Shown here piece after piece: positions 5,314-56,767 of a stretch of 64,000 bases of DNA. Position numbers and translations under genes: made by a program. The stretch's first letter is position 1; each line of letters begins with the position of its first letter. The notes beneath the pieces were generated by a model that saw nothing but the letters and a program-made list of their open reading frames with translations, had not been told where the DNA came from and did not search any database. Source of the DNA: Oribacterium sinus (GTDB lineage Bacteria; Bacillota; Clostridia; Lachnospirales; Lachnospiraceae); NCBI RefSeq assembly GCF_014202695.1, contig NZ_JACHHH010000014.1, positions 1 through 64,000 of the forward strand. The letters are read 5' to 3'.

Positions 5314-5471
5314 ATTCCCTCCAAATATATAAAGACCTTTCTGTCTTATCATTAAGATGCTTGGACTTGCCACCGTAAACCAATCTGTACAAACGATACG
5401 GTTCAATTCCCTGATTCTTTAATTCTGAACCAATAACAGCAATTCATAACATCTTCTTGACTATGTTTGGG

Positions 5472-5500
5472 ATTATAAACGAGGCAAAATCATGTGACAA
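5472..5500 (-). promoter_or_regulatory. Promoter of the suf operon
   Basis: On the minus strand TTGTCA (5495-5500), 17-bp spacer, TATAAT (5472-5477). Transcription would start near 5465, leaving a ~150-nt leader before sufC. The leader holds a bulged GGTTCA/TGAACC hairpin (about 5399-5431). No known riboswitch was recognised and no iscR/sufR gene is adjacent. Confidence 0.75.
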
Positions 5501-5531
5501 TACTATTCCTAGTAATTTTATAGGATTATAA

Positions 5532-5590
5532 GAAAAAAAACAAAAGAAGAGAAAAAAGCCTGTAATAGCAAGCCTTTGTCTCTTCTTTTG
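5532..5590 (-). terminator. Terminator of the glpK-DUF1667 operon
   Basis: The 12-bp arms CAAAAGAAGAGA (5541-5552) and TCTCTTCTTTTG (5579-5590) enclose a second small stem. On minus they are followed by eight T residues. It separates the glycerol operon from the suf promoter just beyond. Confidence 0.85.
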
Positions 5591-16627: not shown

Positions 16628-16662
16628 AACGAGTATCGCACACTACGCGTGCGATACTCGTT
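16628..16662. repeat. AACGAG palindrome, copy 1
   Basis: Perfect 14-bp arms (AACGAGTATCGCAC) around a 7-nt loop, 10 bp after the stop of the binding-protein gene. The same family recurs at 24443-24478 and 61301-61335. The stem is not followed by a T-run, so it is not a plain terminator. Confidence 0.75.
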
Positions 16663-16672
16663 AAGAATCAAA

Positions 16673-17980
16673 TTACTTCTGCTCTTCTGCAAGCTTTTCA
16701 TTCATTTGTTCTGCCATCTGCTTACATGCTTCTTCCATGGTAAGCTCTCCGGTATAAACCTTGGTGATGATTTCATTATCTGCATTTTCCCAGCTTACAG
16801 TACTTCTGGAATAAGGACGAATTACCATGTCATCCATCATGTTCAGATAAGCCTGCAGGTTAAAGTTTGCACTCTTTACCCATGCATCGGAGGTTCCCTT
16901 GTAAGCGGACATGGTTACTCCAAGTTCAGCCTGCTTCTTCTGTGCCGGCTCAGATCCCAAATACTCAATCAGCTTCCATGCTTCTTCTGTGTGCTTACCG
17001 TTCTTTGCGGCAGCCCATCCTAAACCGTTGTATAAGGAAACTCTCTTACCTGTTTTAGCGTCCTTGGGAAGCTCTACAATATCGGCATTCTGCGCTGTGT
17101 ACTCATTAGCCTTATAGCTGGCAATCATCCAAGAGCCCTGAGGAACCATAGCTACCTTTCCGGACTGGAATAATACTTCCTCTCCGTTCTCGGACATAGT
17201 CTCAGCGGATGGCATCAAGCCTTCTTTAATCCAAGTATCTAAAATATTCATTCCTTCGATGGTCTTTGGATCATCCCATCCGGACTTCTTCTTATCATCA
17301 CTGATAACATATCCGCCCTTATCATAAATCAGGTTATAATATCCTGCCTGATTGTTATCCATCTTCACTGCCAAACCGTACTGAGATCCGTCAGACTTTG
17401 TCAGCTTTCTTGCGGTTTCTGTTAAATCATCCCAAGTCCAGTCGGAAGTAGGATAAGGAACCCCTGCCTCGTCGAAAAGCTTTTTATTGTACCAAATGGC
17501 AATAGTATCAACGTCCTTAGGAACTGCATAATAATGGTCATTATAGGTATAAAGTCCCCAGATATCCCCCGGATAGTTCTCTACTTTAATCTTATCGGAA
17601 GCCTTAATCTTATCTGTCAAATCCAAGAGCATATCATTACTCATATAACGCTCTGATTCATTAGAGTGCATCCAGAAAACATCCGGTAAAGATCCTCCCT
17701 GTGCTCCTGCCTCCAACATAGTCCAGTACTCATTCCACTTTACAACGGAAATCTTGGTCTTGATTCCGGTCTCCTTAGTGAAATCATCTAAAATCTCCTT
17801 AAGTCCCGGTTCCTGGTTGGTATCCCAAATTGCAACGGAAAGCTCGTCAGAGGAAGCTCCCTGCTCACCGCTTCCGCTTGCTGTACTCTCGGAAGAAGAG
17901 CTCTTGCTTCCGCCGCAAGCAACCAATCCCAGAGCCATAAGCCCCATCACTACTGATACCGCTAAACTTCTTTTTTTCAT
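16673..17980 (-). CDS. Sugar-binding lipoprotein, copy 2
   Basis: A 435-residue solute-binding lipoprotein with lipobox LVAC (Cys22) and a Ser-rich linker. From the DTNQEPGL segment to the end it closely parallels copy 1, including MHSNESERYMSN and VSWENAD/VSWEDAN near the C-terminus. It is the promoter-proximal gene of the operon. The pair looks like a tandem duplication that has diverged, possibly for different alpha-galactosides (inference). Ribosome site TTTAGGAGGAAAAG. Confidence 0.9.
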   Translation of the reverse strand: MKKRSLAVSVVMGLMALGLVACGGSKSSSSESTASGSGEQGASSDELSVAIWDTNQEPGLKEILDDFTKETGIKTKISVVKWNEYWTMLEAGAQGGSLPDVFWMHSNESERYMSNDMLLDLTDKIKASDKIKVENYPGDIWGLYTYNDHYYAVPKDVDTIAIWYNKKLFDEAGVPYPTSDWTWDDLTETARKLTKSDGSQYGLAVKMDNNQAGYYNLIYDKGGYVISDDKKKSGWDDPKTIEGMNILDTWIKEGLMPSAETMSENGEEVLFQSGKVAMVPQGSWMIASYKANEYTAQNADIVELPKDAKTGKRVSLYNGLGWAAAKNGKHTEEAWKLIEYLGSEPAQKKQAELGVTMSAYKGTSDAWVKSANFNLQAYLNMMDDMVIRPYSRSTVSWENADNEIITKVYTGELTMEEACKQMAEQMNEKLAEEQK

Positions 17981-43980: not shown

Positions 43981-44097
43981 TCACAAAAAAACAAGCTTAT
44001 CAATTCCTCCGGGTAGCTTTTAGCTTTCTGCGTTATAGCTTTGAAACGGTGGGCAATCTGAGCCCGCCAGTACTTACAGAAATATCTTTTCAGCTTA
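43981..44097 (+). repeat. Half copy of the 98-nt core element
   Basis: TATAGCTTTGAA, then GGGCAATCTGAGCCCG and CCAGTACTT, match the left half of the complete element 115 bp to the right, as does the flanking ACAAAAAAACAAG. The right half is missing, so the structure cannot form. Confidence 0.7.
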
Positions 44098-44100
44098 CAA

Positions 44101-44300
44101 AAAAACAAGGCTTTATAGAACAGCGAACTTTCGCATTATAGCTTTGAAGCCAGGGGGCAATCTGAGCCCGTCAGTACTTGCTAAAAGCGAGCATCGCGAA
44201 GCTTTTAGCTTAGTACTGCTACGAGGCGAAGTTAGCGAAAGCGTGCCCCCGATTCAAAGCTATGATGTCGAAAGTGTATCAATTCTATGTACCTTGTTTA
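44101..44300 (+). repeat. Structured intergenic element, copy A
   Basis: A 200-bp quasi-palindrome with ~50-bp imperfect arms (from AAACAAGG to CCTTGTTT) and a 98-nt central core (44153-44250) bounded by GGGGGCA and TGCCCCC. Inside, CAGTACT/AGTACTG and CTAAAAGC/GCTTTTAG stems form the apex. The core's flanks are almost identical to copy C at 56.6 kb, while the apical stem differs in sequence but still pairs. Confidence 0.75.
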
Positions 44301-44331
44301 AATAGTGACTACATTTCTGTAAAAACGACTC

Positions 44332-54604: not shown

Positions 54605-54736
54605 TCATAGCCGGAAAGGATAAAGAACTTTCCTGTCGGCAATTTCATTTACGTATAAACCACCAAACTTACAGGCCGGTATTCCAGTATGATAGCAAGG
54701 TGGATTTACTATTTCAAGTGGAAAAGGACGGTTTTC

Positions 54737-56530
54737 ATGGCATTTGACGGATTGTATCTTGCAGCGTGCATCGCGGAATTTCAAGAACGAATTTTAGGCG
54801 GAAAGATTTCCAAAATCATCCAAAGTGAAAAAGATGAGTTACAGCTTTTTATAAAGAAGGAAAAAAACACGGAGATTCTCCACCTCTCCGCCAATCCCTC
54901 CTTCCCTCTTCTATATCTGGCAAATGAAGGGAAAACCGCCCCCATTACCGCCCCCAGCTTTTGTATGTCCCTTCGAAAGCATATCGGAAACGGCATTATC
55001 CAAAGCATTCGGCAGGCTTCTCTAAAGCTTACGGAGGCAGGGCTGGAGCGAGTGCTCTTTTTGGATATATCCCATAGAGATGAGCTGGGGGATGTAGGTA
55101 TCAAGCATTTGGCTGTGGAGATTATGGGTAAGTATTCCAACATCATTTTGCTGAAGGAAGATTATACAATTTTAGACGCCATAAAGAGAATTTCCCTGAG
55201 CCAGTCCTCCGTAAGAGAGGTGCTTCCCGGGAGGGAATATTTCATTCCGGATGCCTTCCATAAGGAAAATATTTTATCCTTCCCTATGGATAAGCTGGAT
55301 GCTCTCTTGGAAAAAGATGCCCTCCCCTTATGGGAATGCCTCTTCCAAAGCTTTTCCGGACTAAGCCCCTTGCTGGCCAGAGAACTTTGCCTTAGCGCTT
55401 CTCTCCCCATCGATAAACTCTCCAATACCTTATCTTCGGAGGAAGGGATGCGGGTGCAGGAAGCCATTTTGGCCTTTCGGAGAACGATTCAAGAAAGGGA
55501 TTTTCATCCGGTCATTTTGTATGAGGGTGAAAAAGCCTTTGACTTTTCTGCACTCTCCGTCCAACAATACAAGGGCAATCCGGCATTTTCCGAAGAATAC
55601 ATTGCTTCCCCCTCCGCCCTCCTCCTTCAATACTATGGAAATAAGGAGAGGGACGACAGGGTACGGCAAAAATCCACCGACCTAAAGAAGCAGTGCCATA
55701 CCCTTCTGGAGCGTTGTAATAAAAAGCTGGCATTGCAGGAAAAGCAGTTAAAGGATACGGAGAAAAAAGATAAATTCAGAATCTACGGAGAACTCTTAAC
55801 CACCTATGGCTACAGCCTTTCCGGAGGAGAGAAAGAACTGGTATGCGAAAATTACTATACAGGAAAAGAAGAAAAAATTCCTTTGGATCCTACCCTTTCT
55901 CCTATGGATAACGCCAAGAAATATTTTGAAAAATATGATAAGGCCAAGAGGACGGAACAAAACCTTTTAGAGCAGGTAGCAGAAAGCAAAAAAACGCTCT
56001 ACCACCTCCAATCCATTATGAACAGTATACAGCTTGCGGAAAGCGCAGGAGATCTGGATGCCATAAGGGCGGAAATGGGAGACTTCGGCTATATCAAAAA
56101 AGTAAGCGGAAAGAAGAAAAAACAGCGAAAGGAAGACCAGTCCAAGCCAAGACTTTTCCGTTCTTCAGACGGCTATCTTCTCTATGTGGGAAAAAATAAC
56201 CAGCAAAATGAAATCCTCAGCTTCCAGATTGCAGAAGGAAAGGATTTTTGGTTCCATGGAAAAAATATTCCCGGCTCCCATGTGATAGCCAAAACAGAGG
56301 GAAAGGATTTGGAAGAACTTCCCGATCGTCTCTTTGAAGAGGCTGCAGAGCTGGCCGCCTACTTCTCTTCGGAAGGCAGCAGCCAAAAGGTAGAGGTGGA
56401 TTATACCCAGAAGAAGAACCTGAAAAAGGTCCCTGGAGCCGCCCCTGGCTTTGTGATTTATCACCAGAATTACTCTATACTGGTAAGCCCAAAGCTTAAG
56501 CTGGAAGAAATCAAAGACTTCCCCTGGTAA
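54737..56530 (+). CDS. rqcH: RqcH/NFACT ribosome quality-control protein
   Basis: A 597-residue NFACT protein (also annotated fibronectin-binding A). RqcH adds alanine tails to stalled nascent chains on 50S subunits. N-terminal NFACT-N (MAFDGLYLAACIAEFQ, HIGNGIIQSIRQ), a long central coiled coil, and a C-terminal NFACT-R domain with DFWFHGKNIPGSHVI. Start at 54737 where the family N-terminus begins; the ribosome site AAAGGACG is moderate. Its last codons form one arm of the palindrome that follows. Confidence 0.93.
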   Translation: MAFDGLYLAACIAEFQERILGGKISKIIQSEKDELQLFIKKEKNTEILHLSANPSFPLLYLANEGKTAPITAPSFCMSLRKHIGNGIIQSIRQASLKLTEAGLERVLFLDISHRDELGDVGIKHLAVEIMGKYSNIILLKEDYTILDAIKRISLSQSSVREVLPGREYFIPDAFHKENILSFPMDKLDALLEKDALPLWECLFQSFSGLSPLLARELCLSASLPIDKLSNTLSSEEGMRVQEAILAFRRTIQERDFHPVILYEGEKAFDFSALSVQQYKGNPAFSEEYIASPSALLLQYYGNKERDDRVRQKSTDLKKQCHTLLERCNKKLALQEKQLKDTEKKDKFRIYGELLTTYGYSLSGGEKELVCENYYTGKEEKIPLDPTLSPMDNAKKYFEKYDKAKRTEQNLLEQVAESKKTLYHLQSIMNSIQLAESAGDLDAIRAEMGDFGYIKKVSGKKKKQRKEDQSKPRLFRSSDGYLLYVGKNNQQNEILSFQIAEGKDFWFHGKNIPGSHVIAKTEGKDLEELPDRLFEEAAELAAYFSSEGSSQKVEVDYTQKKNLKKVPGAAPGFVIYHQNYSILVSPKLKLEEIKDFPW

Positions 56531-56767
56531 AGTTTCAGAGAAGAAAAAGAGAAGATGAATTTTAAGCATTTCATAACAGTATAGGTCTGGAATTGGGGCA
56601 CGCTCCCGCTAACCTCGCCCTGCAACGGATACTAAGCGAAAAACTGCAGTTCCTTCGTTTTTCGCAAGTACCGGCGGGCTCAGATTGCCCCCATTCCAGA
56701 CCTATACTGTATGAAATAGAAAATTGTTTCCAGCTCTATATTCTCTTTTTCTTCTGCCCTTTACCAG
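56524..56767 (-). repeat. Structured intergenic element, copy C, in a 244-bp quasi-palindrome
   Basis: Arms begin CTGGTAAAG at the rqcH stop codon (56524) and end CTTTACCAG at 56759-56767. They match again at AGAAGAAAAAGAGAA, ATTTCATA and CAGTATAGGTCTGGAAT. The ~98-nt centre (56594-56692, minus orientation) has the same GGGGGCAATCTGAGCCCG start, TACTTGC, GCTTAGTA and GTTAGCG blocks as copy A. The apical stem GCGAAAAAC/GTTTTTCGC has a different sequence. Confidence 0.75.

Follow-up and report, generated by a model that had tools for sequence, protein, structure and literature searches.

The window (the whole 64,000-nt stretch of Oribacterium sinus DNA analyzed here) contains two copies, A and B, of a roughly 98-nt sequence that sits at the center of a long, imperfect inverted repeat. 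The locus raises the question of what this sequence is and what maintains it. An earlier note, made from the letters of the window, had proposed either selection on a folded structure or a mobile structured element. The genus Oribacterium belongs to Lachnospiraceae, and we followed the sequence through the home genome, the genus, and samples of the family and phylum. The core is repeated at more than 100 genomic places, is missing from the corresponding place in congeners at the two sites examined, is nested in older copies, and is kept as a covarying fold. We hypothesize, and consider reasonably probable, that it is the conserved part, a folded RNA of ~98 nt, of a non-coding mobile element that is dispersed in the genome, has arms derived from local fold-back copying, and is moved in trans.

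Two copies in the window

The sequence blocks that had been described for the two copies were all found where they had been reported. In copy A, the core is bounded by GGGGGCA (44153-44159) and TGCCCCC (44244-44250); CAGTACT (44172-44178) pairs with AGTACTG (44212-44218), and CTAAAAGC (44181-44188) pairs with GCTTTTAG (44201-44208). The blocks CAATCTGAGCCCG, TACTTGC, GCTTAGTA, and GTTAGCG are all present in copy B, whose core is 99 nt long vs. 98 nt in copy A. The features of both sites are as follows.

44024..44077, + strand: left half-unit without a right partner, consisting of an arm, GGGCAATCTGAGCCCG (44051-44066), and then CCAGTACTTAC
44074..44152, + strand: left arm of copy A, imperfect; 62 positions match in a local alignment to the reverse-complemented right flank
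44153..44250, + strand: core of copy A, GGGGGCA...TGCCCCC, 98 nt; match to model R1 of 107.6 bits (G000:C14)
44172..44218, + strand: P3 and apical stem of copy A, CAGTACT/AGTACTG around CTAAAAGC/GCTTTTAG, from the fold; P3 pairs covary
44235..44242, + strand: P4 mini-hairpin of copy A, GCGAAAGC, with a GNRA loop (GNRA in 98/98 complete copies)
44251..44322, + strand: right arm of copy A, imperfect; from the same local alignment of left and right flanks
56524..56593, - strand: 3' arm of copy B (element strand); begins with CTGGTAA (56524-56530), the last codon and stop of the ORF at 54689-56530
56594..56692, - strand: core of copy B, 99 nt; match to model R1 of 105.7 bits
56693..56767, - strand: 5' arm of copy B (element strand); inverted match to 56524-56593

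On the element strand, both copies folded far more stably than shuffled sequences (z = -9.0 for A and -9.1 for B; 0/200 shuffles as stable in each case). The opposite strand of copy B gave a z score (-9.9) larger than that of its element strand, and the folding energies of element vs. opposite strand were -73.0 vs. -62.4 for A and -73.5 vs. -69.2 for B. The window contains the block CAATCTGAGCCCG exactly three times. Its third occurrence, which had gone unmentioned, belongs to the left-half copy at 44024-44077 just upstream of copy A, so that site A represents a truncated array, in which two left units are matched by a single right one. This site is flanked by two minus-strand ORFs, and site B sits between the ends of two convergent ORFs.

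Copy number and distribution

The earlier note knew of no family with this signature, and our searches agree. Rfam 15 gave no match at the element at the gathering score; at copy A, a search up to E 10 returned a single chance match, which scored 15.3 bits where the cut-off is 100. No such family in Oribacterium or Lachnospiraceae was among the matches listed from the open-access literature. Further genomic copies, whose presence had been named as a check on the proposal, turned out to be numerous, and two-sided pair changes are plentiful in their cores. Allowing up to 2 mismatches, GGGCAATCTGAGCCCG occurs at 152 sites (74 forward, 78 reverse) in the 2.73-Mb genome, compared with 0 for a backward-read control, and 48 of the 100 sites listed are exact. 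A script recovered 82 complete copies from the stretches fetched around the listed sites and from the window; adding the O. parvum/G009 loci brought the total to 98 complete-copy matches, 92 of them distinct. Alignment A3 comprises the 76 sufficiently different copies, and 51 of those 76 make up the core alignment A4 and model R1.

Within the genus, R1 detected cores (E ≤ 0.01) in the source genome G000 (at least 135, a lower bound with up to 150 candidates scored per genome), G009 (65), G007 (8), G005 (2), and G001 (2), and no match at this threshold in the other 12/17 genomes. Density reaches ~1 copy per 20 kb. A scan of named genomes matched only ten stretches of Oribacterium parvum. In a sample of the family, 90/299 genomes had an R1 match at E ≤ 0.001; 13 candidates were scored per genome, which makes the per-genome copy numbers lower bounds. 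A phylum-wide sample yielded matches at E ≤ 1e-4 in 5/398 genomes, four of the same family and one (G727) of another. The five matches in G727 are weak, and one alignment keeps GGTACTT, TTAGTACC, and the capped mini-hairpin. At two loci of G114 (L226 and L227), the contigs stop just beyond the element, as if palindromes break assemblies; counts in draft genomes may be too low.

Several variants accompany the typical copies. A divergent core relative (50.6 bits) lies just past a left-half copy in G009 (L087, 1338-1435), and in G007 (L141, 1352-1741) three distant relatives follow one another head to tail every 149 bp, an arrangement that differs from the half-unit arrays found in the home genome. 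At seven O. parvum/G009 loci (L077, L080, L084, L085, L098, L099, and L100), the core is interrupted between CTACG and GGCGAGG by a second module of ~108 nt containing several hairpins, and a stretch similar to this module occurs at L014 in the home genome. An exact two-block signature of the element was not found in the viral contigs scanned, a narrow test of viral carriage since the pattern matches just 39/316 element loci.

Fold of the core

RNAalifold applied to the 76 copies of A3 returned 41 pairs, of which 31 carried at least one two-sided change, arm pairs included. In the core alignment A4, using a structure hand-drawn from the RNAalifold result and thus tested on the same kind of copies, 93.4% of cells pair vs. 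83.5% in shuffles, two-sided changes occur at 18/31 pairs, and the covariation score was reached by 0/500 shuffles. Across 63 distinct relatives, in an alignment fitted to R1, pairing was 91.1% vs. 69.3% in shuffles, with two-sided changes at 27/31 pairs and again 0/500 shuffles reaching the score.

The family-wide core runs approximately from CGGTACTTA through the apical stem and TTAGTACCGCTRCG to a hairpin of two pairs capped by a GNRA loop. This loop is GAGA, GGGA, or GAAA in 98/98 complete Oribacterium copies, GAGA, GAAA, GGGA, GCGA, GGAA, or GCAA in 73/73 rows of relatives (63 distinct), and GNRA in 51/51 rows of A4. Selection of rows by the model could favor the first G and the last A of the loop, but hardly the purine at its third place. 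Among the right-half units of the home genome, decayed outer units included, 8/114 are non-GNRA.

Within stems, G-T pairs outnumber A-C mismatches by 107 to 24 among the relatives and by 54 to 23 in A4. Because an A-C mismatch is the wobble pair of the opposite strand, the G-T excess, together with the GNRA loop, suggests that a single strand is under selection as RNA. This would be the simplest reading of the core, judged from these alignments, and both structured-RNA features considered, covariation and strand-specific pairing, are present in it.

Mobility and nesting

Corresponding loci in other genomes revealed sites without the element. In G321, a copy lies between two tightly spaced genes, which we take to be V-type ATPase genes, and 17/17 readable congener loci (19 fetched) show a short spacer instead. 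At the G081 site, 4/6 congeners are empty, G363 carries the element flipped, and G361 holds another insert (L272), a different long palindromic sequence at the place of the element. For both G321 and G081, the divergence of the congeners prevented the element ends from being fixed in a search for direct target-site duplication; the G250 site falls, in the close genome G370, on separate contigs.

Copies A and B are themselves missing from the matching places in G009. Between positions 5323 and 6106, the window has no element where G009 has a copy. The best matches between the home genome and G009 at these empty sites (67-86% identity) are too diverged for fixing the ends of the element. Beside the G009 copy, a ~50-nt block, TGTGACAATA.TATTCCTAGTAATTTTATAGGATTATAAGAAAAAAAACA (window ~5493-5542, L078), is nearly identical in both genomes and is perhaps a regulatory site.

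Copies are also found inside one another. In arrays, left units lie ~98 bp apart and right units ~88 bp apart, and 20 arrays have at least two left and at least two right units. Those with two left units all pair by level (9/9), inner with inner and outer with outer better than crossed; the remaining 11 have unequal unit numbers and are less clear. TTTTCGGCAATATAGG, an arm type found on solitary copies (close variants at L044 and L050), forms the outer left arm at L024, L033, and L054, which suggests that a newer element inserted into the apical stem of an older copy. At L032, a perfect 19-nt partner lies 472 nt away from one of the middle left units, and other units are without a partner.

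Origin of the outer arms

At the 52 solitary copies (arrays were left out of this count), complementarity between the flanks extends outward by a median of 75 nt, compared with 21 nt for flanks of different copies, and exceeds the 99th percentile of the control at 43/52. The arm match overlaps a flanking ORF by 15 nt or more at 17/52 solitary copies vs. 101/2000 mismatched pairs, where flanking ORFs are ORF calls of at least 100 aa rather than annotated genes. Identical positions in such ORF-reaching arms number 17/17 at L009, 55/74 at L022, and 71/104 at L029. The same-direction cases among them number five; in these, the arm reaches the 3' end of the upstream gene, which places its partner across the element, before the next gene.

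Arms in G321, G230, and G250 match their own partner only (own-partner scores of 8 to 48 vs. a mismatched maximum of 8), those in G309 are mostly copy-specific, and those in G171 and G121 are common to copies. In six other genomes pooled, 14/39 copies exceed the 95th percentile of mismatched pairs; this comparison covered 39/45 rows, omitting two L197, one L213, and three G114 copies. The common arms in G171 and G121, together with only 14/39 copies above the percentile, indicate that arms partly travel with the element. In G321, the end of the upstream gene recurs inverted across the element, in a match that is short, diverged, and suggestive only. The outer arms have a weak wobble asymmetry (119 vs. 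74), weaker than that of the core, as local inverted copying predicts.

Arms that differ between copies A and B but still pair had been read as compensatory, that is, as arms that travel with the element and mutate under selection for pairing. Although two-sided changes occur at 31/41 pairs with arms included, and the G171 and G121 arms are family-like, we regard this explanation as very unlikely, because arms reach into neighboring ORFs, match no other copies in G321, G230, and G250, and show a weaker wobble bias than the core. The earlier proposal of selection on a fold or a mobile element thus holds on both counts for the core (covariation, GNRA loop, G-T excess, empty sites, and nesting), but the compensatory reading fits the outer arms less well, which are copy-specific in G321, G250, and G230 and extend into ORFs at 17/52 loci. 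Inverted copies of local DNA, partly carried to daughter copies, would fit the arm sequences better than compensatory mutation. According to two reports, template switching during replication can give rise to inverted copies and to hairpin stems that pair perfectly, homogenizes the arms of inverted repeats, and inverts the spacer (PMC8794818, PMC8604942), effects that fit both the arms and the flipped core in G363.

A separate short palindrome, AACGAG(T/A)ATCGC...CTCGTT, turns up repeatedly, either next to the element or in its place (L112, ~16648-16683; flanks of L006 and L061).

Genomic position

The 52 solitary copies lie between convergent ORFs in 30 cases, same-direction ORFs in 19, and divergent ORFs in 2, with 1 case undetermined. 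Since convergent and divergent pairs are equal in number on a circular chromosome, 30 vs. 2 represents a strong 3'-end bias. In the 3-kb loci from other genera, same-direction neighbors are common and a convergent bias is not evident. Runs of T5 occur 35-110 nt to the right of 28/52 solitary copies vs. 15/52 further out, and A-runs to the left of 31 vs. 11 further out. A putative terminator role is plausible; a simple scan found no terminator at site A.

The same features bear on an unlikely alternative, in which the element enters the loop of an existing terminator hairpin and the arms are the old terminator stem of the host. The element-free counterparts of sites A, B, and L078 in the other genome do carry short hairpins, the 3'-end bias and A/T-rich base speak for this route, and copies also enter other copies, which are themselves hairpins. 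However, arms reach 15 to 104 aligned nt into ORFs at 17/52 loci, beyond the length of a terminator stem, and the empty congeners of G321 and G081 have short intergenic spacers that, by eye, lack an arm-like stem.

A family of host-serving RNAs or terminators, spread long ago and now retained for regulating or ending transcripts, would account for a core kept in many genera, for sites past stop codons, and for the T-runs. We consider it quite unlikely in view of the empty congener sites, the 12/17 genus genomes without any element at E 0.01, the nesting of copies, and the insertion between two tightly spaced genes in G321.

Search for a mobilizing enzyme

A linked REP-associated transposase had been suggested as a further check, and none was found. 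The home genome has two Y1_Tnp ORFs (164 aa), but G007 and G005, which carry distant relatives of the element, have none. PF01797 was matched in 9/17 genus genomes (2 ORFs in G000 and 4 in G009), and PF00078 (RVT_1) in 11/17, with element relatives but no RVT_1 in G005 and G001. Across the genus, the presence of PF01797 fails to track the element, as does that of PF00078, and a REP-type transposase and a reverse transcriptase were each set aside as the engine on this ground. G005 has two distant relatives and neither domain; these relatives are few and could be relics, which keeps both types of engine in play. The reverse transcriptase ORF of the home genome (464 aa) lies inside a group II intron (L153 979-2801, G000 C15), and a similar group II intron is present in G009 (L154). 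An all-against-all blastp of 155 ORFs from 39 loci revealed no recurrent linked family: one group spans three loci, with ORFs that overlap the element, and seven span two.

Recognition of the hairpin by an IS200/REP-type tyrosine transposase, which would move the element as single-strand DNA, appears highly improbable to us. The element is a gene-free hairpin, and PF01797 ORFs occur in G000 and G009, as this route would have it; yet G007 and G005 have relatives without PF01797, other genus genomes show the reverse, one home PF01797 copy read through by eye bears no trace of the element, and the wobble bias and GNRA loop point to RNA.

Proposed mechanism and implications

Under our preferred explanation, a mobile folded RNA moved in trans, new copies would be made from the element transcript, or from that strand, by machinery acting in trans. 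The landing place, in this genome mostly just past a stop codon, would be where the flanks would turn into a long inverted repeat of local DNA. Fold-back copying, a form of template switching in DNA replication, may generate the arms during insertion or later, and the same process could keep the arms matched, stretch them outward into gene ends, and flip the core. Once transcribed, the large hairpin with its A-rich 5' and U-rich 3' base would probably serve as a two-way terminator or a 3'-end shield, so that insertions past stop codons would do little harm.

If this explanation is right, an undescribed mobile RNA-like element resides in ~30% (90/299) of the sampled genomes of a large family of gut and mouth bacteria. 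Two signals that are often merged would be separated, covarying stems produced by selection in the core and paired arms produced by inverted local copying, and the element would offer a natural test of how far template switching mimics compensatory evolution. It would also pose a concrete question, namely which enzyme moves a gene-free RNA hairpin. As the arms reach gene ends, caution is advisable for annotators.

Comparison with known elements

Like REP/BIME sequences with their RAYT, the element is gene-free, hairpin-forming, and intergenic, occurs in more than 100 copies, and can cluster. REPs are 20-40 bp long and end in GTAG or CGTC, according to one report (PMC3733652). The element differs from them in its ~98-nt branched core, in arms of tens of nt (median 75 at solitary copies), and in having no enzyme that tracks it. 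MITEs, ERIC, Correia, and BOX elements are small and non-autonomous with inverted repeats at their ends, BOX having repeated modules, and MITE ends are common to all copies and to an autonomous partner. The element is likewise small and non-autonomous with terminal inverted repeats. Unlike the ends of MITEs, its arms are copy-specific in G321, G230, and G250 (those of G171 and G121 are common to copies), and the ORFs around 39 loci revealed no partner. It behaves as small non-autonomous repeats such as REPs and MITEs do, yet fails the size of REPs and, in several genomes, the shared ends of MITEs.

Group II introns, one class of which inserts past terminators, are also mobile structured RNAs, and G000 and G009 have one each. 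In contrast to them, the element has no internal ORF and no Rfam group II match, such matches being found in L153 and L154. With template-switch hairpins it has in common inverted local copies, arm matching, and spacer inversion (PMC8794818, PMC8604942). Those reports concern mutations of RNA and protein genes, whereas the spacer of the element is a dispersed, conserved RNA core.

Eukaryotic SINE-like retroposons are short, structured, gene-less RNAs dispersed by an enzyme acting in trans. The element would share all of these properties, dispersal in trans being part of the proposed mechanism; it differs in being bacterial, tail-less, and without a demonstrated link to a reverse transcriptase. 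We tentatively suggest, as a possibility to which we give rather low odds, that it is a bacterial counterpart of SINEs: a gene-less folded RNA of ~98 nt, widespread in Lachnospiraceae and self-nesting, which would be copied via RNA in trans and whose insertion would write an inverted copy of the target, leaving each copy as the tip of a hairpin made from its landing site.
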